The translations under genes were made by a program, and so were the position numbers. Positions 49,515 through 61,185 of a stretch of 64,000 nucleotides of DNA are shown here, one piece after another. The notes beneath the pieces are model-generated. The model saw only the letters and a program-made list of their open reading frames with translations. It did not search any database and was not told where the DNA came from. The stretch is from Allorhodopirellula heiligendammensis. Lineage in GTDB: Bacteria; Planctomycetota; Planctomycetia; Pirellulales; Pirellulaceae. Positions within the stretch are counted from its first letter, which is position 1. Every line of letters starts with the position of its first letter. The stretch lies in contig NZ_SJPU01000001.1 in NCBI RefSeq assembly GCF_007860105.1, positions 186,001 to 250,000 on the forward strand, read 5' to 3'.

Positions 49515-51269
49515 TTAGTGCTGCTTGTTCCGCTTTTTTTGTGGGTTCAGTGGCAAGACATTGGCACGCTCGGCATAGGCCTGCCACATCGCAGCAAGTT
49601 TTTCAACCTGCTCGGGCATTTCAGCACTCAAGTTGTTCTGCTCACTTCGATCATTGGCAATGTTGTAGAGTTCCCATTCTCCTTTCACGCCCTTCGCGAC
49701 TAGTTTGTAGTCACCAGCACGAATGGCACGGTTGCCTTCGTGCTCCCAGTAGATCGCCTCGCGATCGAACTTTTTGCGAGTGTCGGCATCACTTGCAAAC
49801 AAGGGTGTCAAGCTTTTGCCTTCCATTGGCTTGATCTTCTTTCCATTGTGAAACGTCGCCGGGTAGGTCGCACCAGAAACATCGACAGCGGTCGCCATCA
49901 AGTCGATGAGATGCCCCGGTGTCGTCTCCAGTTCACCCTGTCGCTTGATTTTGGCGGGCCAGTGAGCGATCAAGGGCGTCGAGATGCCGCCCTCATGGGT
50001 CCAGTGCTTGTACTCGCGAAATGGCGTGTTGGACACGGTCGCCCAGCCCCGTCCATACCCGATCGCCGTGTCAGCCGGTCCCGCCATTGCGCCCTTTCCC
50101 GTTCGCATGACGAAGCCGTCACGCGACTGTTTCGGTGTCATATCAGGTTGAAGATAGGCTGCTGGTAGCGCCGCCAGGGTTGGTTGCTCGGCCCGCTCCA
50201 CACCCACGCCACCACGTCCATACCCTTCGGCACATCCGCCGTTGTCCTGCAAAAAACAGATCAGGGTATTGTCGAATTGCCCGGTGTCCTGGAGAGACTG
50301 CACGATTCGGCCGATGCCTTGATCCATGGAGTCGATCATCGCTGCGTAGACTTCCATGTTTCGCTTGTCCCAGTCCCAATGGTCAGTTTCCTTCCAAGCA
50401 TCCTCAATTTCCCAGTTGACCGTGCTGCTCGCATCTATCACGCCGAGGTCCAACATCCGCTGGTAGCGAGCGCGCCGGACAGCGTCGTAGCCAGCATCAT
50501 AGGCACCCTGGTATTTAGCAATATCCTGAGGCAATGCATGCATTGGCCAATGGGCCGCGGTGAAAGCAACATACAGAAAGAATGGCTGATCTCCCGTTTG
50601 AGCGTCGTGCTGTCGGATAAAGCGTGATGCGTGATCGGCGATCGCATCGGTGTAATAAAATGTTTCGCCCGGCCAATCTTCTTTGCCGTATTGGGAATCA
50701 TTGAACGGCGAAATGTAATCATTATCACGCGTTAGTGTATTTGGGTCGAAGAAGCTTCCGGCCCCATGGATGGTTCCATAGAATCGGTCGAAACCACGCT
50801 GCATGGGCCAATTCGCCTTATCCGCCTCTGCTTGCGGGTTGATCTTGGCCGTCACATGCCATTTGCCTGACATGTAGGATCGATATCCCGCCTCCTTGAG
50901 TGCTTCGGGAATGGTTACACAATGGCGATTGAGCTCACCTCGATAGCCCGGGTAGCCTCGATCTTCCATCATGTGCCCGACGCCTGCTTGGTGCGGATAC
51001 AGACCGCTGATCAAACTTGCGCGTGTCGGGCAGCAGCGGGCAGTGTTGTAGAACTGAGTGAATCGAATTCCGTGGGCCGCCAATGTGTCGAGGTTTGGTG
51101 TACTGATCTCGCTCCCGTAACAACCGATATCGGAGTACCCCATGTCATCGGCGAGAATATAGATGATGTTCGGACGATCCTCCGCAACCGCCAGAGAAGA
51201 AACGGAGATTGCCAGGACGCCTAAGAACAGCCAGGCCGCAGTAGTCAGACACAATGAGCGCGGACGCAT
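49515..51269 (-). CDS. Secreted sulfatase (arylsulfatase A-like)
   Basis: A 584-residue S1-type sulfatase that hydrolyses sulfate esters, probably of polysaccharides, outside the cytoplasm. A signal peptide (about residues 1-29, ending AVA) precedes 'IIYILADDMGYSDIG' with the metal-binding Asp pair. The formylglycine site is 'CCPTRASLISG' with Cys79 as the residue to be converted (CxPxR), followed by 'SGKWHV' and 'FLQDNGG'. I chose ATG 51269, which gives a clean signal peptide; the frame continues to 51332. It lies 87 bp downstream of another sulfatase on the same strand, so the two are probably an operon. Confidence 0.93.
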   Translation of the reverse strand: MRPRSLCLTTAAWLFLGVLAISVSSLAVAEDRPNIIYILADDMGYSDIGCYGSEISTPNLDTLAAHGIRFTQFYNTARCCPTRASLISGLYPHQAGVGHMMEDRGYPGYRGELNRHCVTIPEALKEAGYRSYMSGKWHVTAKINPQAEADKANWPMQRGFDRFYGTIHGAGSFFDPNTLTRDNDYISPFNDSQYGKEDWPGETFYYTDAIADHASRFIRQHDAQTGDQPFFLYVAFTAAHWPMHALPQDIAKYQGAYDAGYDAVRRARYQRMLDLGVIDASSTVNWEIEDAWKETDHWDWDKRNMEVYAAMIDSMDQGIGRIVQSLQDTGQFDNTLICFLQDNGGCAEGYGRGGVGVERAEQPTLAALPAAYLQPDMTPKQSRDGFVMRTGKGAMAGPADTAIGYGRGWATVSNTPFREYKHWTHEGGISTPLIAHWPAKIKRQGELETTPGHLIDLMATAVDVSGATYPATFHNGKKIKPMEGKSLTPLFASDADTRKKFDREAIYWEHEGNRAIRAGDYKLVAKGVKGEWELYNIANDRSEQNNLSAEMPEQVEKLAAMWQAYAERANVLPLNPQKKRNKQH

Positions 51270-51356
51270 GATGAATTTCACGAGCAAGTGGGGAAGGGCA
51301 AAAAAGGATGATGAGTAGACTGCATGTGACAAAACGCCAAGCAGAGAGATGCGAAG

Positions 51357-52877
51357 TTAGCGTGGGGAGTGCTCGTCAGTCTGGGAGGTACGCTGCCCCG
51401 CCGCTCGGATTGCCTTGCCGACATGCTGGGTCAATGAATCGCCCAACTCCTCGCGGTATGGCTCGGCCAGCTCTGTGAGCGCCAACACCACTTCCGGATA
51501 ATCAGTGGCCACATTTTTGGTTTCGCCGATGTCATTAGACAGGTCATACAGCGAGAGTGGTAACTGCTCGACACGGTACCCGTGCCTACTAGCAATGCCT
51601 TCGACGCCACTCGCAGTGATCGACATCGGCTTGAGCTTTCCATGCCCCGCTGGTTTTCCGTCCGCTCGAAGGTCGTCACGAGGGGTTAGGTACGGGTGCG
51701 GAAAATGCAACTTCCAACGCCCTGAGCGAATCGCATGGAGTTCGCTTCCGCTATAGAAAACCAACGACTCATGCGGCATGTTATTTGACTCTCCTCGCAG
51801 GGTCGCCTCGATATTCACTCCGTCGATCTGCTTCCGAGGCAGCTCGGCACCAGCCAAACTGCACAGCGTCGGCAGTAGATCGATCGACATCATTGGCGTG
51901 TCACAAGTCCGCCCGGCAGCAATCTTCCCCGGCCAGCGCATGATCGCTGGTACGCGGACGCCACCCTCGAACGCTGTCAGCTTGCCCTCTCGCAAGACTC
52001 CTGAACTACCTGCATGTGTCCCGTAGCTTAGGAATGGCCCGTTATCGTTGGCGAAGATAACGAGGGTCTTGTCAGTGAGTTCATTTCGATCAATCGCGTC
52101 AACAATCTGACCTACAGACGCATCGATCTCTTCAATCACATCACCATACAGTCCCGTTGCCGACTTCCCGCGAAATTCGTCCGAAGCAAATATCGGCACA
52201 TGCGGCATCGGATGTGGCACATACAGAAAAAACGGACGATCGCGATGCTGGTCGATGAACGCGACTGCCCGCTGAGTGAATCGTTTGGTGAACAGTGCTT
52301 GATCGGGATCGGTTTCGACGACTTGTTCCCCATCGTAGAGCGGCAGCGGCGGCATACTGTCAGACAGGACAGGATGGTACTTGGTATTGTCATTTGAATA
52401 GGGAATACCGAACCACTCATCGAATCCATTCCGCGTAGGACTGAAGGCCGGTGGCATTCCGAGGTGCCATTTCCCTAGAATGGCTGTGGCATACCCTTGC
52501 GACCGCAGCAGCTCTGGCAACAACTCTTCATCTGCATTAATTCCATTCGTACTGGTGTGATTGAGCGCTCCCGCCAAACCAACACGGTTTGCATAGCATC
52601 CTGTTAAAAGCGAGGCGCGTGACGCTGTGCAAACGGCTTGGGAAACATAGAAATCCGTGAACCGTGTCCCCGCTGCGGCGAGCTTGTCAATATTGGGTGT
52701 CTTGATCGGTGTTTCAGAAAACGAACTCAGGTCGCCGTAGCCCATGTCATCGGTGAATATCAAGACGATGTTGGGAGGATCGCCGGACTCTGCTTTCAGT
52801 GACGTTGAATACAGCGTTTGTGAGATGAATGCGTTGCTGGCGGCGAGGGCCAGCGTCATCGCAAAGTACCTGAGCAT
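51357..52877 (-). CDS. Secreted sulfatase with CxAxR maturation motif
   Basis: A 506-residue S1-type sulfatase with an N-terminal signal peptide (about 1-30), 'IFTDDMGYGDL' metal site, 'GKWHLGM' and 'IFANDNGP'. The formylglycine site reads 'CTASRASLLTG' (Cys83): the Pro of the CxPxR consensus is Ala, a variant I know from other planctomycete sulfatases, so it is probably still matured. It is the first gene of a two-sulfatase minus-strand unit. The 271 bp upstream, up to mnmE, form a divergent promoter region in which I see no gene. Confidence 0.93.
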   Translation of the reverse strand: MLRYFAMTLALAASNAFISQTLYSTSLKAESGDPPNIVLIFTDDMGYGDLSSFSETPIKTPNIDKLAAAGTRFTDFYVSQAVCTASRASLLTGCYANRVGLAGALNHTSTNGINADEELLPELLRSQGYATAILGKWHLGMPPAFSPTRNGFDEWFGIPYSNDNTKYHPVLSDSMPPLPLYDGEQVVETDPDQALFTKRFTQRAVAFIDQHRDRPFFLYVPHPMPHVPIFASDEFRGKSATGLYGDVIEEIDASVGQIVDAIDRNELTDKTLVIFANDNGPFLSYGTHAGSSGVLREGKLTAFEGGVRVPAIMRWPGKIAAGRTCDTPMMSIDLLPTLCSLAGAELPRKQIDGVNIEATLRGESNNMPHESLVFYSGSELHAIRSGRWKLHFPHPYLTPRDDLRADGKPAGHGKLKPMSITASGVEGIASRHGYRVEQLPLSLYDLSNDIGETKNVATDYPEVVLALTELAEPYREELGDSLTQHVGKAIRAAGQRTSQTDEHSPR

Positions 52878-53136
52878 GTTGAATCTTATTTCGGGAATCG
52901 TGAATGCAGTGTGCTAGGGCTAGCCATGCGGCGTGGGGAGTCAGACCTAGCTATTTATACACGAGAATCGGGAACGTTTTGGGCCAAAGCCGCTCGGACT
53001 GGAGCGGGTTGTTGATTGAGTGAGCTGAGACGCGTAAGTGGCCGGGCGAGGTTATTGTCGGGCCTGTGGGATGAAGACATGCGACGCTCATTGTGTATAA
53101 CTGACCGGTTCCAGCACTCGGCCACCGATCACCATC

Positions 53137-53140
53137 AGGA
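53137..53140 (+). promoter_or_regulatory. Candidate Shine-Dalgarno site for mnmE with ATT start
   Basis: AGGA lies 8 nt before the in-frame ATT at 53149. It is the only good ribosome site near the conserved N-terminus of MnmE and is the reason for choosing that unusual start. Confidence 0.4.
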
Positions 53141-53148
53141 TTTTTCCC

Positions 53149-54570
53149 ATTCGCCAGTTCACTGTTGATGACACGATTGTCGCGATCGCCTCTCCGCTCG
53201 CTCCTGCGCCACGCGGTATCGTGCGTCTCTCGGGTGACTCTGTCGTGCCGATTTTGCAACGCGTGGAGTTATTGCGTCAGGACCATGGCGACCCACGTTC
53301 GCGGCGCTTCTCTGCGTCGCTGGACCTGGGCGACTGCCTGGGACGACTCGATCTCGACGTGCTGTTGTGGCCGACCCCACGCAGCTACACCGGCCAGCCC
53401 GCTGCCGAGCTGCACCTAATTGGATCGCTACCGCTGCTCGATGCCGTCGTCGATCGATTGATCGGGGCAGGGGCGCGGGCGGCCCGCGCCGGTGAGTTCA
53501 CGATGCGTGCGTTCCTCGCAGGACGAATGGATTTGCCGCAGGCCGAGGCAGTGCTCGGGGTGATCGATGCCGAAGATCCGAACACCCTCAATCAGGCACT
53601 CTCGCAGTTGGCTGGAAATCTGTCGCGGCCCCTCCAAGCGGCCCGCAGCGAGCTGCTCGACCTGCTTGCCGACGTTGAGGCCGGACTCGATTTCGTCGAC
53701 GAGGATATCGAATTCGTAGAAGACGCCCATTTGCTCGAGCGGCTCGGTGAGGTTCGCGAGCGGCTCGCGGCGATCGCCACTCAGCTGCGTGATCGATCCG
53801 CCTCCCGGTCTGAACTGGAGATTGTGTTGCGTGGGCTCCCCAACGCCGGTAAAAGCTGCCTACTCAATGCACTCTCCGGCGGTGAGCATGCGATTGTCAC
53901 CGAGGAGGCCGGCACCACTCGCGACAGCATCTCCGTAAGTTTCGCAGTCAATGGCCACCCGGTCCGCATGACCGACACGGCAGGGATCGAATGGCGGGCT
54001 GAACATGAACTTGACTCTGCCGTCCTAGCCAAGGCACAACTGCAGGCAATCGAGGCGGCATCACGGGCGGATGTTTGTTTGTGGTGCGTCGATGCGAGCG
54101 ATCATGATCAAGCCCCTGCAATCGAGCAGCTGCGGCATGCCGTTCATACCCGCGAAGGTTACAAAGCATCGATCGAACACTGGGTCATCCTCACGAAGAC
54201 GGATCTGATGTCGGCGTCGCCATCCTGGTTCGACGAGGTCCGTGCTTTGGGGGTCTCCCTCTCAATGATCAGTACGCTGACGGGCGACGGAATGGATTCA
54301 CTCAGAGCTCAGATTGCAGAAGCCGCCGAGCGTCGCGATCCGACCGAAACCGGTGGCGTGATCGGCACCGCTGCCCGCTGTCGTGATTCACTCACCGCGG
54401 CCGGCCTCGCAATTGGCAGTGCAATCGACATGACACAATTGCAGGCGGGTCACGAACTCGTCGCTGCCGAGATTCGCGCCGCCGCATCGGCCATCGGGGA
54501 CGTCACCGGCGAGGTCTACACCGACGATCTGCTCGATCGTGTGTTCAGCCGATTCTGCATCGGCAAATGA
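53149..54570 (+). CDS. mnmE: tRNA modification GTPase MnmE
   Basis: MnmE, with MnmG, installs the (carboxymethyl)aminomethyl group on U34 of certain tRNAs. Domains: N-terminal folate-binding part ('DDTIVAIASP', 'RGIVRLSG', 'RAGEFTMRAFLAGRMDLPQA'), helical domain, and a G domain with G1 'GLPNAGKS' (about 229-236, including the potassium-binding Asn), 'AGTTRDS', 'DTAGI' and 'TKTD' instead of NKxD. It ends in the family's 'CIGK'. The conserved N-terminus extends upstream of the first GTG (53221), yet no ATG, GTG or TTG exists in frame back to the TAA at 53098-53100. I place the start at ATT 53149, behind AGGA; CTG 53101 or a sequence error are alternatives. Length is 473 residues, near normal. 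Confidence 0.85.
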   Translation: MRQFTVDDTIVAIASPLAPAPRGIVRLSGDSVVPILQRVELLRQDHGDPRSRRFSASLDLGDCLGRLDLDVLLWPTPRSYTGQPAAELHLIGSLPLLDAVVDRLIGAGARAARAGEFTMRAFLAGRMDLPQAEAVLGVIDAEDPNTLNQALSQLAGNLSRPLQAARSELLDLLADVEAGLDFVDEDIEFVEDAHLLERLGEVRERLAAIATQLRDRSASRSELEIVLRGLPNAGKSCLLNALSGGEHAIVTEEAGTTRDSISVSFAVNGHPVRMTDTAGIEWRAEHELDSAVLAKAQLQAIEAASRADVCLWCVDASDHDQAPAIEQLRHAVHTREGYKASIEHWVILTKTDLMSASPSWFDEVRALGVSLSMISTLTGDGMDSLRAQIAEAAERRDPTETGGVIGTAARCRDSLTAAGLAIGSAIDMTQLQAGHELVAAEIRAAASAIGDVTGEVYTDDLLDRVFSRFCIGK

Positions 54571-54682
54571 GCGGCGATTCGCGTCCCCTTTTCGGTGCGA
54601 TCCATCCGAGTACAACAACACCTCGTAGCACGATCTGCCACCGCCCGGCTCAGCTGGGTTCCCACTTTCGATCCACTCACAA

Positions 54683-55063
54683 TTGACCCTCACTCCAGTG
54701 AATTCCCAGCCCTCTGATTTCCGTGATCTGTTGGAAGTATTCGACAATCCGGCTCCCCAGCGAAACTTTTCCATCGAGCACCACTGTCCTGAGTTCACGT
54801 CAGTGTGCCCGAAAACAGGACAACCGGACTACGGCGTGATCGTGTTCACCTACGTACCTGATCAGGTCTGCGTCGAGCTGAAGAGCCTGAAAATGTATTT
54901 GCAGCGTTTTCGCAACGAGGGAATTTTCTACGAAGCGGTCACCAATCGTATCCTCGATGATTTCGTCGCCGTCGTCCAACCACGCCGCTTGCGGGTGGAA
55001 AGTCGCTGGACACCGCGTGGCGGGCTCAACAGTAATATCATCGTCGAATATCCGGAAACCTAG
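54683..55063 (+). CDS. queF: PreQ1 synthase (NADPH-dependent 7-cyano-7-deazaguanine reductase)
   Basis: QueF reduces preQ0 to preQ1 in queuosine synthesis. This 126-residue protein is the short, unimodular type. The active-site segment is '[14 protein letters not shown]', with nucleophile Cys42 and general acid Asp49 seven residues apart, as in the family. The QueF signature 'ELKSLKMY' (65-72) is present. There is no in-frame ATG: it starts at TTG 54683 or GTG 54698, neither with a clear ribosome site. It follows mnmE by 112 bp on the same strand; both act on tRNA wobble position 34. Its end faces the sulfatase at 55093, 29 bp away. Confidence 0.93.
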
Positions 55064-55092
55064 ACAGACCTGATCAACACGCCAGGCTCGCG

Positions 55093-56565
55093 TTACCGCT
55101 GAGTGCCGCTCTTCCAAAGTTTGATATTGTCGGTATCGTTCCGAGATTCTGGTCCGGTGGTACTGCGACCACGGGCGATGTCAGCTTTCAGCAGCGCGAT
55201 CAACCGGGCGGCCACCTCGGGCTGGGAAGCGTATTGATTCGTCGTCTCCGCCGGGTCGCTCTCCATATCATAAAGTTGAGCGATGGGACTGTCAGCGGCG
55301 ACCTGCTTTTCGGTGGGTGAGCTCCAGCCACCTGATCCCTTCGCCAGCAGCAGTTTCCACTTTCCTTGGCGATAGCCGAAATGTCCGCTGATCGAGTGAT
55401 GGATCACGCCATCGCGGGTGGATGCGATCGGTTCCCCCGACAATGCAGGGAGAAAGCTGACGCTGTCCTCGGCACTGCCCGCTGGCAAGGTTTCACCGGT
55501 CAACTCCGACAGTGTCGCAAACAAATCCGTTAGGCAGATGGTCTGATCGCACGTCGAACCTGCGGCGACCTGACCCGGCCAGCGGACGATAAATGGAATG
55601 CGATGTCCGCCGTCCCATAAATCTGCTTTTGAACCTCGATACCCCGCACTCACCTGGTGCCCCAACTTGGCCAGCTGCGCGATACCCGCAGCTCGCGAGC
55701 ATCCGTTATCGCTACTGAAGACGAACATTGTGTTCTCGGCCAACCCGGCCTGCTGCAGTGCATCAGCTATTTTCCCAACCGCAGCATCGGTCTGCATCAC
55801 AAAATCTGCGTAGTCGCCGAGCCCACTCTTGCCCTGCCATGCTTTCGAAGGCACGATCGGGGTATGCGGAGAACCGAACGGAACATAGAGAAAGAAAGGT
55901 GTCTGCGCGGAATCAGCAGCGCGCGCACCAATGTAGTTCACCGCCTCGCGTTCTAATCGCGGCAGCATGTTGATCTCATCATCGTGCTCGATTACCTGAT
56001 CATTCTCCACCACACATTTCATGTTCCGGGCATGATGGAACCCATGAAAGAAATCGAATCCACGATGGATCGGGCCATCCGGAATCCGAGACCCAACCGG
56101 CGCCAATCCGTCTTTCCTGTTGAGCGCGGTGCCGGTCACCGGATCGAGGTACTGAAAATTCAAGTGCCATTTGCCAACTATGCCCGTGTGGTAGCCCTGT
56201 GATTTCAAAAAGCTCGCAACGGTTGGCCGATCTTCGGCGACGAGGTCGGGAGCGAATCCCTGCACCACTCCGCTCTGTAACTCGGTTCTCCAACTATACC
56301 GCCCCGTCATCAGACCGTAGCGGGTGGGGGTACAAACCGACGATCCCGCGTGCGCGTCGGTGAAGACCATGCCTGCGGCAGCAAGTTTATCGACCGAGGG
56401 CGTCGCGATTTTTCCATGCTCGAGGTTCAAGCACTGGACATCCCCATAGCCGAGGTCATCGCATAGAACAAAGACAATGTTAGGTCGCGGACTGGCCGCA
56501 TTTGTGCCTTGGCAGATTGCTAATAGACACAGCATGAAGCTGGCAATCGACGTCACTCTGAACAT
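55093..56565 (-). CDS. Secreted sulfatase (arylsulfatase-like)
   Basis: A 490-residue S1-type sulfatase with a signal peptide (about 1-23, 'MLCLLAICQGTNA'), the metal site 'VLCDDLGYGDVQ', the formylglycine motif 'CTPTRYGLMTG' (Cys78, CxPxR), 'GKWHLN' and 'FSSDNG'. It is complete and should be active if a formylglycine-generating enzyme is present; none is in this window. It is more distant from the two sulfatases at 49515-52877 than they are from general arylsulfatases, so substrates may differ. It lies 200 bp downstream of the desulfurase homologue on the same strand, probably with its own promoter. Confidence 0.93.
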   Translation of the reverse strand: MFRVTSIASFMLCLLAICQGTNAASPRPNIVFVLCDDLGYGDVQCLNLEHGKIATPSVDKLAAAGMVFTDAHAGSSVCTPTRYGLMTGRYSWRTELQSGVVQGFAPDLVAEDRPTVASFLKSQGYHTGIVGKWHLNFQYLDPVTGTALNRKDGLAPVGSRIPDGPIHRGFDFFHGFHHARNMKCVVENDQVIEHDDEINMLPRLEREAVNYIGARAADSAQTPFFLYVPFGSPHTPIVPSKAWQGKSGLGDYADFVMQTDAAVGKIADALQQAGLAENTMFVFSSDNGCSRAAGIAQLAKLGHQVSAGYRGSKADLWDGGHRIPFIVRWPGQVAAGSTCDQTICLTDLFATLSELTGETLPAGSAEDSVSFLPALSGEPIASTRDGVIHHSISGHFGYRQGKWKLLLAKGSGGWSSPTEKQVAADSPIAQLYDMESDPAETTNQYASQPEVAARLIALLKADIARGRSTTGPESRNDTDNIKLWKSGTQR

Positions 56566-56765: not shown

Positions 56766-57950
56766 TCAGGCGCGCGAGGCATATTCGCAGGCGTCGGCCA
56801 CTAAGTCGACGGCGCGATCAATCTGCTCGCGGCTGGTAGTCCACCCAACGGAGAATCGCAATGTGCATCCGATCTGTTGTTCGCTTTTACCAATCGCGCG
56901 CAGCACACGAGTGATTTCGTCCGGCGGACTCTTTGACTGTGCCGCGGCGACAACAATCTGTCTCGCTGTCCTTTGAATGCGTTTTGCTTCGGTGGCCAGT
57001 TCGATGGCGACAGTATTGGGTAGCCGAGCCACATGCTCAGCGAGCACTTCAATGCGACTATCGAGCGTCGCTCGCAACCCCTCAACCAGACGCTCGCAGA
57101 GCTCTTGCAGCGTCGCCTGAGCTTCATCGACGCATCTCGCCGTCATTGCCGCAGCGGCCCCGAGGCCGACGATGCCCGGTACATTTTCGCTGCCGGCCCG
57201 CAATCCCATCTCCCTGGATTCCCCGAATGAAATCGGATTCATATCCAGGCCGCGGCGAACGAACAGCGCCCCACTTCCCTTGGGGCCGTAAAACCTATGC
57301 GCACTCACGGACAGCGTATCTACTCGCAATTCACGCACATCAACTGGGACGCGTCCCACTGCTGCCGTGGCATCGCAGTGAATACGAATCCCCCGACTGT
57401 GGCTGCGATCGGCCAACTCTCGAATCGGCTGGATCGTACCCACCACGGGATTAGCCAATTGCAGGCACGCCAAACGCGTAGTGGGTTCGAACCGCGATGC
57501 AAACGCCTCTACTGACACAACTCCCTGGCTGTCGCAGGGGACCCAGTCTACCCGCCACCCCAGTAGCTGCAGGTGTTTGGCCGCCGCGATAACCGATTCG
57601 TCCTCAACCTCAGACACCAAGGCGTGCGGTGGTGGTACATGAGAACTACAAGGAAAACCGGGGGCGTGATCTCGTGGATCGCTGCCCGCGTGACAGATCA
57701 TCGCTGCCCCGAGCACGCCGAGGTTATTCGCCTCGGTTCCACCGCTGGTAAAGACGACCTCGAATGGATCGCACCCCAACAGCATCGAAACATTTTCTCG
57801 CGCAGTTTCAATCGCTTCGCTCACTGCCGAGGCGTGCACGTGCGATTGCGAGGGCAGCATGAAATGCGTTGACCAAAAGGCCTGCATGGACTCGATGACC
57901 GAGGGGGCCATCGGCGTCGTTCGATTGAAGTCCAGGTAAATTAGCGACAC
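56766..57950 (-). CDS. Cysteine-desulfurase (NifS/IscS) homologue lacking catalytic residues
   Basis: A 394-residue fold-type I aminotransferase-class V protein, collinear with NifS/IscS: 'YLDFNRTTP', 'FTSGGTEANNLGVLGA', 'ANPVVGTIQPI', 'IHCDATAAVGRVPVDV', 'SAHRFYGPKGSGALFV', 'RAGSENVPGIVGLG'. By comparison with known enzymes, the PLP Schiff-base lysine is Arg219 (codon AGG), the ring-stacking His is Asp117, the PLP-contacting Gln is Ala196, and the active-site Cys loop reads 'VAAAQSKSPP' with no Cys. It probably cannot bind PLP covalently or mobilise sulfur. The start is GTG 57950, 11 bp after the stop of the SET gene, so the two form a unit. Its role is unknown; the fold and dimer may be kept for binding or regulation. 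Confidence 0.88.
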   Translation of the reverse strand: MSLIYLDFNRTTPMAPSVIESMQAFWSTHFMLPSQSHVHASAVSEAIETARENVSMLLGCDPFEVVFTSGGTEANNLGVLGAAMICHAGSDPRDHAPGFPCSSHVPPPHALVSEVEDESVIAAAKHLQLLGWRVDWVPCDSQGVVSVEAFASRFEPTTRLACLQLANPVVGTIQPIRELADRSHSRGIRIHCDATAAVGRVPVDVRELRVDTLSVSAHRFYGPKGSGALFVRRGLDMNPISFGESREMGLRAGSENVPGIVGLGAAAAMTARCVDEAQATLQELCERLVEGLRATLDSRIEVLAEHVARLPNTVAIELATEAKRIQRTARQIVVAAAQSKSPPDEITRVLRAIGKSEQQIGCTLRFSVGWTTSREQIDRAVDLVADACEYASRA

Positions 57951-57961
57951 TGGTAAACGGC

Positions 57962-58474
57962 TTAGCTCGATTTCTTTTTGTGTTTTTTGGCCAGCCGTTT
58001 CATCTTTTTGACCTCATCCTCAGCCACCACCCACCCACGACAATTCCGCGCGCCACAGCGGCAGCGAGGATTCCAATCGAACGCTTCCCAAGCGTAATCG
58101 AAGGTTAATTGCGATTCCGCTTCGATATTGCAAATCGCGACTACCCCCAGCGACGTTTTCGTCAACTGGATTAATTCGCAGTTTGGGCTGCAGGAGTGAT
58201 TCATGAACGCACCCGGCATACTGGGTTCGAGATACCACTTGGTATCCAAATCCATCACGTATTCGCTGCCTTCGTAGTCCTTTTTGCTAATCAATTGGCC
58301 AGTCACTTCCATCACCAATTCACCGGGTAGGAACTGACGTGCCGCAAATACCCCGTGTCCACATTTGCCAGTCGTGCGAACCTCGACGTCCTCATCCCAG
58401 TAAGAACGGTAGGAGTAGTCTTTATCGACGACGGCTTGCAGTTTTTTTCGGCGTCGTTTGTCCAAGGTGATCAT
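57962..58474 (-). CDS. SET-domain protein lysine methyltransferase with post-SET motif
   Basis: A 170-residue protein that is almost only a SET domain, the eukaryote-like fold that methylates lysine with S-adenosylmethionine. Visible are 'GHGVFAARQFLPGE' (39-52), 'MNHSCSPNCEL' (91-101, cofactor and knot region), 'LTFDYAWE' (123-130, catalytic Tyr127) and the post-SET zinc cluster 'CRCGARNC' (138-145). The Lys-rich tail (about 155-170) could contact nucleic acid or an acidic partner. ATG 58474 matches the domain start; the longer frame to 58777 gives no recognisable sequence. It is divergent from ruvX (311 bp between, no gene seen) and precedes the desulfurase homologue by 11 bp. Target protein unknown. 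Confidence 0.88.
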   Translation of the reverse strand: MITLDKRRRKKLQAVVDKDYSYRSYWDEDVEVRTTGKCGHGVFAARQFLPGELVMEVTGQLISKKDYEGSEYVMDLDTKWYLEPSMPGAFMNHSCSPNCELIQLTKTSLGVVAICNIEAESQLTFDYAWEAFDWNPRCRCGARNCRGWVVAEDEVKKMKRLAKKHKKKSS

Positions 58475-58785
58475 GCAGTGTTTCAGGAAAAGAAAATTAA
58501 GAGAAAGGTCGTGCGTTGTCCGCCGACGGCTCCGTTTGTTAGCCGGGTCATGTTTGAGCCGCAGATCCCCCCGTTTGCAGCAGTGGAGATGAGAACCAGT
58601 GCAGACAAACTCAATGGTCGGAATCGGATGGGTTGGCTTATTGCCCAGGCAGCGGAGGTCCCCTAGTTTCATCAACGCAATGCTGAGCGTCAACGCAGCA
58701 ATTTGCCAATTTTTGCAAGCACATCGTTTGTCTCGCTGTCGATTCACCGTTGACAGCCCCCTCCTACTGCACTTCACTCGTGCTC
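58475..58785. other. Divergent intergenic region between the SET gene and ruvX
   Basis: About 310 bp, expected to carry promoters in both directions. I see short open frames but no ribosome site, family match, clear hairpin or convincing promoter. Confidence 0.4.
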
Positions 58786-59338: not shown

Positions 59339-59443
59339 ATGACCCCGTCGAAGCCCAATGAGGTCGATTTCGATCAGGCCGCGCGGGACAATGGTCCCAA
59401 CCTACGGCCGTCATTGTCTTCCTCTCGAATTACCTTTCCGTGA
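59339..59443 (+). CDS. Possible 34-codon ORF coupled to the C25 peptidase gene
   Basis: ATG 59339 opens a 34-residue frame (MTPSKPNEVDFDQAARDNGP...) between ruvX and the C25 gene. Its TGA (59441-59443) overlaps the GTG start of the peptidase (59440) in a GTGA, an arrangement typical of translational coupling. It has no clear ribosome site and no family I recognise, so it may be a leader peptide or chance. Confidence 0.3.
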   Translation: MTPSKPNEVDFDQAARDNGPNLRPSLSSSRITFP

Positions 59444-61185
59444 GAACACTGCCCGTGCTGCTGAAATACGTCCACTTGAGAAAACACCAGGCATTCCCGC
59501 GATGGCTCTGCGTGGCAGGCATGCTCGCGCTGGCATCGGTGAGCTCGGCTGCGGACGTCGTCGTCGTGTGTGCGGATAGCTTTCGAGAATCGCTCGAACC
59601 CTGGTGTCAGCTTCGCCGCGCCGAGGGCTTGAAACTCGCATTCTGTCGTCCCTCTCTTACCGCAGAAGAAACATCGACGCGAGTTCGCGAGGCCGCTGAT
59701 CCATCGACGCGGTACGTCGTTCTCGTTGGTGACGCGCCAGACTATTCCCCTCGCGCGCAAAACTCTGCACTCAACCAAGGAATCTCGCACAACCAAGCAA
59801 CAGCGGTCGACTCCGACCGTGTCACACGCATTCCAGCCTTCTATCTGCCGGCGAAAGTAACCGCCGCGTTTGGCTCGACGCCGACGTACCCTGCGGATCT
59901 GCCCTACGGTGATTTGGACGGTGACGGTATCACGGACGCGGCGGTGGGTCGCCTGCCCGTCGTTACGCCCGATCAATTAGCAGATTTGGTGCATCGTCTC
60001 TTGGCCTACGAATTGTCGCAAGACTTTGGTGTGTGGCGACGTAGCTTCCAACTCACTGCGGGCGTTGGCGGATTTGGGATGTTGATCGACGGCGCGATTG
60101 AGTCGGTGACCCGATCCGTTCTCACAAGCGTACTGCCGGCTGACGCGAAGCCACAAATCGCCTATGCCAGTCCCGGTCATGCATTCTGTCCGCCGGAGGA
60201 GTCGTTTAGCACTGCGGTGCTCGGACGGTACCGCAACGGATCGAGGTTCTGGGTGTATGCTGGGCATGGCAGCGTTGACCAACTGAATTTTCTTTCCCGA
60301 TCGCAGCAGGATGCGGCAGCCCTCTCCGAGTCGGCCCTGACGCAACGAACGACTGATGGACAGTGGCGGGTGGAATCGCTGCTTGATAATCAAACCGTCA
60401 CCCGTTTAGTAGCACCTCCCGGTCGGGCTCCCATCGCGATCTTGTTGGCGTGCTACGCCGGAGCGTATGACGCCCCTGGCGACTGCCTATCCGAACGGAT
60501 GCTGCTAACCCCCGGTGGTCCGGTCTCCGTAATCGCCGCGAGCCGCTTAACGATGCCTTACGGCAATGCCCGATTCGGACTCGGGTTGCTCGAATCCGCC
60601 TACCACGATGTCGATGCTGCCGACGCCCCTGAGCGATTGGGGGACGCGATGCGAGCAGCCGTTCGTAATTTGCAGATTCAACGACCAGGCTCGACGACGC
60701 AGATGATGGTCGATGGTCTGGCCACCCTGATCTCTCCGGCCGCTGATCAGTTGGCCGACGAGCGCAGCGAGCACGCGGGTTTGTATCAGCTTTTCGGTGA
60801 TCCTACACTCAATCTTCAGTCGCCTCAGCAGTTGTCAGTGACCGTGAACGCGGCCGAAACAAGCGACCAGTCATCGGAGGCGGCAGTAGTCCCTAGCCAC
60901 ACAGTCTGTGTGAACGTGACCAGTCCAATTGCGGGCAGACTCACCGTCTGTGTTGATCGCCCATTAACGGCGGTATCCGCCCCGACCGTTGGGCTCCCAG
61001 ACAATGCGGCAGACGACCCGCACGGCTGTACCCTCGGCTACGTGACGATTCCTATTGAAGGTAACGTCGCCGGCATAACGACAATTCCTCTCCCAGAAGA
61101 CTGGAGCGGCCCAGTCGTCATTCGTGGATTCGTGCAAGGACGCGAAGGCTGGGCCAGCGGTTCGGCGAGGACCGTGGTGGACTAG
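59440..61185 (+). CDS. Gingipain-like cysteine peptidase (family C25)
   Basis: A 581-residue secreted peptidase related to gingipains. A basic stretch and hydrophobic core (about 20-38, ending SSAA) look like a signal peptide. The C25 catalytic domain follows: 'YVVLVGDAP', 'PYGDLDGDGITDAAVGRLP' (Ca-binding-like, about 155-173), catalytic His276 in 'FWVYAGHGSVD' and Cys338 in 'ILLACYAGAYD', then 'YQLFGDPTLNLQ', the usual domain end, and an Ig-like C-terminal part of about 110 residues. No type IX secretion C-terminal signal is obvious. The start is GTG 59440. It ends 22 bp from the dehydrogenase gene on the other strand. Confidence 0.86.
   Translation: MRTLPVLLKYVHLRKHQAFPRWLCVAGMLALASVSSAADVVVVCADSFRESLEPWCQLRRAEGLKLAFCRPSLTAEETSTRVREAADPSTRYVVLVGDAPDYSPRAQNSALNQGISHNQATAVDSDRVTRIPAFYLPAKVTAAFGSTPTYPADLPYGDLDGDGITDAAVGRLPVVTPDQLADLVHRLLAYELSQDFGVWRRSFQLTAGVGGFGMLIDGAIESVTRSVLTSVLPADAKPQIAYASPGHAFCPPEESFSTAVLGRYRNGSRFWVYAGHGSVDQLNFLSRSQQDAAALSESALTQRTTDGQWRVESLLDNQTVTRLVAPPGRAPIAILLACYAGAYDAPGDCLSERMLLTPGGPVSVIAASRLTMPYGNARFGLGLLESAYHDVDAADAPERLGDAMRAAVRNLQIQRPGSTTQMMVDGLATLISPAADQLADERSEHAGLYQLFGDPTLNLQSPQQLSVTVNAAETSDQSSEAAVVPSHTVCVNVTSPIAGRLTVCVDRPLTAVSAPTVGLPDNAADDPHGCTLGYVTIPIEGNVAGITTIPLPEDWSGPVVIRGFVQGREGWASGSARTVVD

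Follow-up and report, generated by a model that had tools for sequence, protein, structure and literature searches.

Amino acid replacements in Escherichia coli IscS have defined the residues that a group I cysteine desulfurase needs. IscS variants H104Q, D180G, Q183E, K206A and C328S are inactive, K206A retaining some pyridoxal phosphate (PLP), and R354K is active (PMC9978102). A desulfurase whose catalytic Cys is changed to Ala halts at the cysteine aldimine/ketimine (PMC3266904). In DndA, Asn150 and Arg353 were put forward as the residues that hold the carboxylate of the substrate (PMC3343029); by our reading, Asn150 is the counterpart of IscS Asn155. IscS proteins that lack the PLP lysine have been described in Archaeoglobus fulgidus (PDB 4hvk, 4eb5; D199K mutant 4r5f) and Methanosarcina acetivorans (IscS1) (PMC7585200). 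Here we analyze a gene in a 64,000-nucleotide stretch of Allorhodopirellula heiligendammensis (NZ_SJPU01000001.1, positions 186,001 to 250,000; hereafter the window), which probably encodes a conserved pseudoenzyme with the group I cysteine desulfurase/selenocysteine lyase fold.

The gene and its active-site replacements

The features discussed below are the following, all on the minus strand, with residue equivalences taken from an alignment with E. coli IscS (NC_000913.3).

56766..57950, minus: gene for the putative NifS/IscS-fold pseudoenzyme, 394 aa, GTG start
57600..57602, minus: codon 117, GAC (Asp), at the PLP-stacking His position, IscS His104 (alignment; coordinates from the frame)
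57447..57449, minus: codon 168 (Pro) at the IscS Asn155 position (alignment; coordinates from the frame)
57363..57365, minus: codon 196 (Ala) at the IscS Gln183 position (alignment; coordinates from the frame)
57294..57296, minus: codon 219, AGG (Arg), at the PLP-lysine position, IscS Lys206 (alignment and codon comparison)
56934..56936, minus: codon 339 (Ser), aligned to the catalytic IscS Cys328 (alignment; coordinates from the frame)
56901..56927, minus: residues 342-350, motif PPDExTRxL just past the former Cys (clade conservation)

The open reading frame (ORF) belongs to a genome of 7.2 Mb and is real: its 394 codons contain no internal stop. A preliminary description of the window had read the gene as a cysteine desulfurase paralogue, undecayed, that keeps the whole NifS/IscS framework and has lost its PLP lysine, stacking His, PLP-contact Gln and catalytic Cys. 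The analysis confirms each of these points. The lysine, His and Gln are replaced by Arg219, Asp117 and Ala196, and residues 334-343 contain no Cys. Ser339 is aligned to Cys328, a pairing that is an alignment choice because the loop is 1-2 residues shorter than that of IscS. Two further losses emerged, Pro168 for Asn155 and Ser254 for Thr243. Thr72 (IscS Thr76), Asp193 (Asp180), Ser216 (Ser203), His218 (His205) and Arg365 (Arg354) are retained.

Measured against a group I desulfurase, the protein keeps the aspartate at the pyridine nitrogen and the phosphate cup, and lacks the aldimine lysine, the loop Cys and the His104/Gln183 contacts. The PLP lysine and catalytic Cys expected of a selenocysteine lyase are both missing. 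As in the A. fulgidus type of IscS the lysine is replaced, and the loop Cys that serves there as cluster ligand is absent. Since IscS mutants at the matching sites are inactive, the window protein almost certainly has no cysteine desulfurase activity, which supports the earlier claim that this chemistry was lost.

Profile models gave a mixed picture. The protein exceeds the gathering cut-off of Pfam PF00266 (class-V aminotransferase), yet reaches none of the 22 NCBIfam equivalog cut-offs listed. Its best NCBIfam score was 266.1 bits with TIGR03402 (cut-off 530.75), a weak test, as the Cys-bearing relative L027 (423.9 bits) falls below it too. The selenocysteine lyase SclA model NF040779 gave 64.7 bits against a curated cut-off of 525. 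The expectation that automatic annotation would call the gene a cysteine desulfurase is thus borne out only in part.

Residue losses across relatives

Orthologues were found in all 13 genomes of the genus, the 12 others being 64-85% identical to the window protein. A profile search of 198 genomes of the family gave matches at E < 1e-95 in 190, paralogues among them. Of the matches listed, 80 were fetched, nearest genera first and then spread. With the best copy per locus, 235 loci and the window yielded 195 non-duplicate sequences. A tree was built from 136 of them (quick IQ-TREE, LG+G4, loop columns excluded, support by SH-aLRT only), and took in only 15 of rows L090-L163. The window protein falls in a clade of 54 sequences (SH-aLRT 100), nested in one of 64 (SH-aLRT 95). 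The inner clade spans nine genus codes of Pirellulaceae, and 50 of its 54 members are devoid of the catalytic Cys.

The residues disappeared at different depths of this tree. Asn155 is kept in none of the 54 clade members, none of the 10 next-nearest sequences and 54 of 56 other family or order sequences. The corresponding numbers are 4, 1 and 54 for Cys328 (0/13 in the genus), and 1, 2 and 54 for Thr243. Gln183 persists in 41/54, all 13 losses being those of the genus (13/13). His104 persists in 46/54, having become Asp in six and Ser in one of the genus sequences (7/13), and Cys in L241. Lys206 is present in 51/54 and in 12/13 of the genus; Arg replaces it in the window protein, L021 and L164. 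Asp180, His205 and Thr76 are invariant (54/54 each), and Arg354 is kept in 46/54. Among 77 relatives from named genomes, His104 and Cys328 are kept in 77 and Gln183 and Lys206 in 76, the Lys count being biased by one of the two search patterns, which contained that Lys. The 56 other family or order sequences, mostly from profile searches free of this bias, all keep His, Gln and Lys. The fewest changes required over the 136 sequences are two each for His and Gln, three each for Asn and Lys, five each for Cys and Arg354, and six for Thr. One of the Lys changes is the Lys-to-Asp of L123 (Candidatus Bathyarchaeota, CP070759.1, 5001-6104), an IscS-like protein (SSNDIYGPKG) that retains its loop Cys and resembles the A. 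fulgidus type.

Along the lineage that leads to the window protein, the lysine was the last to go. Genus g12 (two genomes) lost it separately with His and Gln intact, so the losses follow no single order. The 'coordinated loss' proposed at first is therefore not borne out. Nor is Arg219 conserved in orthologues, as the Lys counts demonstrate. Orthologues with both a Lys at 219 and a Cys in the loop had been named as evidence against a pseudoenzyme; the Lys is common, and the Cys is found in just the four clade members counted above. As the residues went at different depths and Lys is mostly kept, most orthologues may still bind PLP. Only in the window species and in genus g12 can it be argued that no internal aldimine forms.

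The Arg could in principle be a sequencing or assembly error, the window protein being then an ordinary Lys-bearing, Cys-less member of the clade. Codon 219 is AGG in the window, and the other 12 genomes of the genus have AAA or AAG there (AAG in the sister species L009), a single A-to-G difference in one assembly. However, both g12 genomes have CGG at the lysine position, more than a single read error could account for. The site was also degraded already, since Asp117 and Ala196 are common to relatives. We regard an error as highly improbable.

Asp or Glu occupies the IscS Lys105 position in 53/54 clade members. We take this as the position of Asp146 in human selenocysteine lyase on the grounds that it follows the conserved His, the human protein lying outside our alignment. 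Asp146 hinders desulfuration of Cys (PMC3266904).

Several NifS-like sequences outside the main clade (L191/L192, L024, L033/L202-L204, L207-L210) likewise have the PLP Lys and no Cys at the aligned position; in L207-L209 a Cys lies two residues ahead of it. L002 (G000:C1:2507204-2508022) is an IscS-like paralogue with Lys and His whose similarity ends just before the Cys loop; the loop was absent from all three forward frames examined, and L002 appears to be a truncated copy.

Constraint and a re-conserved loop

Divergence at non-synonymous (dN) and synonymous (dS) sites was computed for 7 of 11 listed pairs. In the lysine-less pair L021/L164, 63 codons differ and only 5 of the differences are non-synonymous (dN 0.009, dS 0.255). 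The six other pairs gave dN/dS of ~0.01-0.08, the highest being L025/L086, a Cys-bearing pair. Between the window and L009, dN is 0.083 and dS 2.04, a saturated value. Branch lengths in the tree are sister-like (L001 0.089, L009 0.099). In view of the constraint on these pairs and of these branch lengths, gene decay was rejected. The stop seen in L020 sits at the C-terminal end and leaves its ORF intact.

The loop that carried the catalytic Cys is conserved anew. Across the 50 Cys-less clade members the motif PPDExTRxL has P342, R348 and L350 in 50/50 each, E345 and T347 in 48, D344 in 47 and P343 in 44, with K340 and S341 free to vary. The former catalytic loop thus seems, from its conservation, to have turned into a new conserved element. 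The predicted fold, the residue states, the place in the tree and the intact, constrained frame are the firm part of our account.

The clade might still be a PLP enzyme with another, Cys-independent reaction, of the beta-lyase, racemase or transaminase type, within which the window species and genus g12 lost the lysine. C-DES, a member of the same superfamily, functions without a loop Cys. This cystine lyase is cited in PMC3266904. Lys206, Asp180, His205, Thr76 and Arg354, kept in most or all of the clade, fit such an enzyme. The absence of Asn155, the near absence of Thr243 and the loss of Gln183 throughout the genus do not, and the strong constraint on the Arg-only pair L021/L164 also speaks against it. 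We consider it an unlikely explanation.

A special case of the non-catalytic reading is a dead subunit that pairs with an active NifS/IscS paralogue as a heterodimer, in the manner of LCB1. The LCB1/LCB2 pair is a precedent (PMC3794620), and the same genome has paralogues with both Lys and Cys. In IscS, Thr243 reaches across the dimer interface. It is lost in 53/54 clade members, though the genus has Ser there, and no adjacent paralogue occurs in the regions seen; we judge a heterodimer of this kind to be quite unlikely. The probabilities given to the rival readings overlap, as the heterodimer and sequencing-error readings can coexist with others.

SelD among relatives

Nine relatives are NifS-SelD fusions of ~732-743 aa (L093, L094, L096, L097, L099, L114, L124, L129, L160), on contigs labelled KSB1, Calditrichaceae, Deltaproteobacteria, Zixiibacteriota, Caldisericaceae, Anaerolineae and Bacteroidetes groups, mostly metagenome-assembled genomes. 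The fused SelD domain was identified by Pfam in three fusions and by NCBIfam in L093 (408 bits, selD cut-off 125). The fusion count rests on SelD queries derived from five of these nine proteins and on the DNA around each locus. Earlier reports give Geobacter sp. FRC-32 as the only known NifS-SelD fusion (PMC2398784) and two prokaryotic instances (PMC4561486). Many single-domain SelD matches in Pirellulaceae (e.g. G113:C328:6094-7017, G189:C223:35886-36806) contain one in-frame TGA. Such a codon is expected for selenocysteine in SelD.

The clade might derive from a selenium-pathway enzyme orphaned by loss of SelD, leaving a residual protein that drifts or has no selected function. SelD is fused to 9/32 named relatives with a Cys-His loop and to 0/45 others, and in raw counts a single-domain SelD accompanies 21/53 Cys-bearing and 0/60 Cys-less rows. 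These 113 rows come from 112 genomes (G062 twice), with four named rows and the order-level rows left out. The split between single-domain SelD (E < 1e-100) and long-ORF SelD is a post hoc threshold, the long ORFs being counted without a family scan. None of the 13 genus genomes has SelD over the cut-off. However, 12/53 Cys-bearing rows also lack SelD over the cut-off, and a SelD-like long ORF occurs in 11/60 Cys-less rows. When the tree was taken into account (112 rows), there were 4-5 independent pairs, too few for significance (median p 1), and the striking co-loss was set aside. Drift is contradicted by the dN/dS pairs. Together these results make an orphaned selenium enzyme very unlikely.

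Neighbouring genes

The nearest upstream gene is the following.

57962..58777, minus, same strand: SET-domain protein gene, 11 bp upstream, neighbour in 13/13 genus genomes

This gene adjoins the pseudoenzyme gene in the genus only, the SET orthologue of G023 being located elsewhere. Genes ruvX and queF occur in 2/13 and 5/13 genus regions, some of which are cut by contig ends. Neighbours were scanned within 4 kb, or less where a contig or region ends. A downstream gene for a KaiC-like ATPase accompanies 11/40 of the rest, 4/10 next-nearest and 0/53 clade loci. An upstream gene for a DUF1559 prepilin-like protein, in the opposite orientation, accompanies 33/41 non-genus clade, 8/10 next-nearest, 4/40 of the rest and 0/12 genus loci. 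Pfam identified one KaiC-like and three DUF1559 members, the remainder of each cluster being joined by BLAST linkage. The SET, KaiC-like and DUF1559 genes gave no hint of a function and were dropped as candidate partners.

At 15 loci (L053-L057, L202, L203 and eight more) the KaiC-like gene lies 3' of the NifS-like one in the same orientation, with a median gap of 31 bp. Elsewhere in the window, 59440-61185 encodes a peptidase C25 family protein (Pfam PF01364). Putative ORFs named from their translations are three sulfatase-like ones in 49515-56565, one of them next to the pseudoenzyme gene, and an mnmE-like one at 53221-54570.

A probable stepwise dismantling of the active site

On balance we favor, as a whole, a conserved non-catalytic pseudoenzyme whose active site was dismantled stepwise. 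Persulfide chemistry would have gone early in the clade, with the substrate Asn, the Thr243 position and the catalytic Cys, leaving the PLP cup and lysine in place. Next would have come the loss of the Gln in the genus, then that of the His in a subclade of seven species, and finally that of the Schiff-base lysine in the window species. The window protein would be unable to form a normal internal aldimine. It may still bind PLP or an adduct of it, though loosely, because Thr72, Asp193, Ser216 and His218 are kept. Least certain is its role, conceivably non-catalytic binding or partnership. A partner could be bound through the re-conserved loop 337-350, and might be a second copy of the protein itself, an active paralogue of the NifS/IscS type or something else. 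For the clade, we only tentatively suggest a role without catalysis, as a partner or as a regulator that binds a PLP adduct, with a new conserved loop and with the lysine dropped at least twice under constraint.

Several observations weigh against this account. Genus g12 departs from any fixed order of loss. With Lys206 and Arg354 mostly kept, the binding of PLP and of an amino acid may remain important to most of the clade. A Cys occupies the loop position in four members (L023, L173, L174, L241), and loss of this Cys was possibly repeated or reversed. Arg219 depends on one base in one assembly, and the neighbouring genes offer no clear functional clue.

If the account is correct, these orthologues form a natural series in which an enzyme was turned into a pseudoenzyme, its site dismantled residue by residue. 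Living members cover several stages: a full site, Cys and Asn lost, Gln lost, His lost, and Lys lost, His and Gln being kept in some cases and gone in others. Because these stages survive, the routes by which a PLP enzyme is taken apart under selection are open to tests on one protein after another. Desulfurase-like annotations in Planctomycetota call for an active-site check.

Comparison with known systems

In open-licence PMC articles, titles and the beginnings of abstracts yielded nothing about the window protein, and 'Rhodopirellula' with 'cysteine desulfurase' gave no result. The window protein shares its fold and the PLP-cup residues Thr72, Asp193, Ser216 and His218 with E. coli IscS, human NFS1 and NifS, but has no equivalents of Lys206, Cys328, His104, Gln183, Asn155 and Thr243. 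Compared with human and rat selenocysteine lyase it is without the catalytic Cys, the Lys and the His. NifS-SelD fusions occur among Cys-bearing relatives outside planctomycetes, whereas the window protein has a single domain and a dismantled site. LCB1 of serine palmitoyltransferase is a lysine-less subunit of PLP fold whose partner LCB2 carries the PLP lysine (PMC3794620), and belongs to another family. A. fulgidus IscS, whose loop Cys is given as a cluster ligand with IscU, keeps the residue that the window protein lacks. An IscS without lysine is thus known from Archaeoglobus, and a lineage under constraint that has lost Cys as well as Lys seems to be new. What sets the window lineage apart from these lysine-less precedents is that nucleophile and lysine have both gone, under constraint and with the intermediates surviving.
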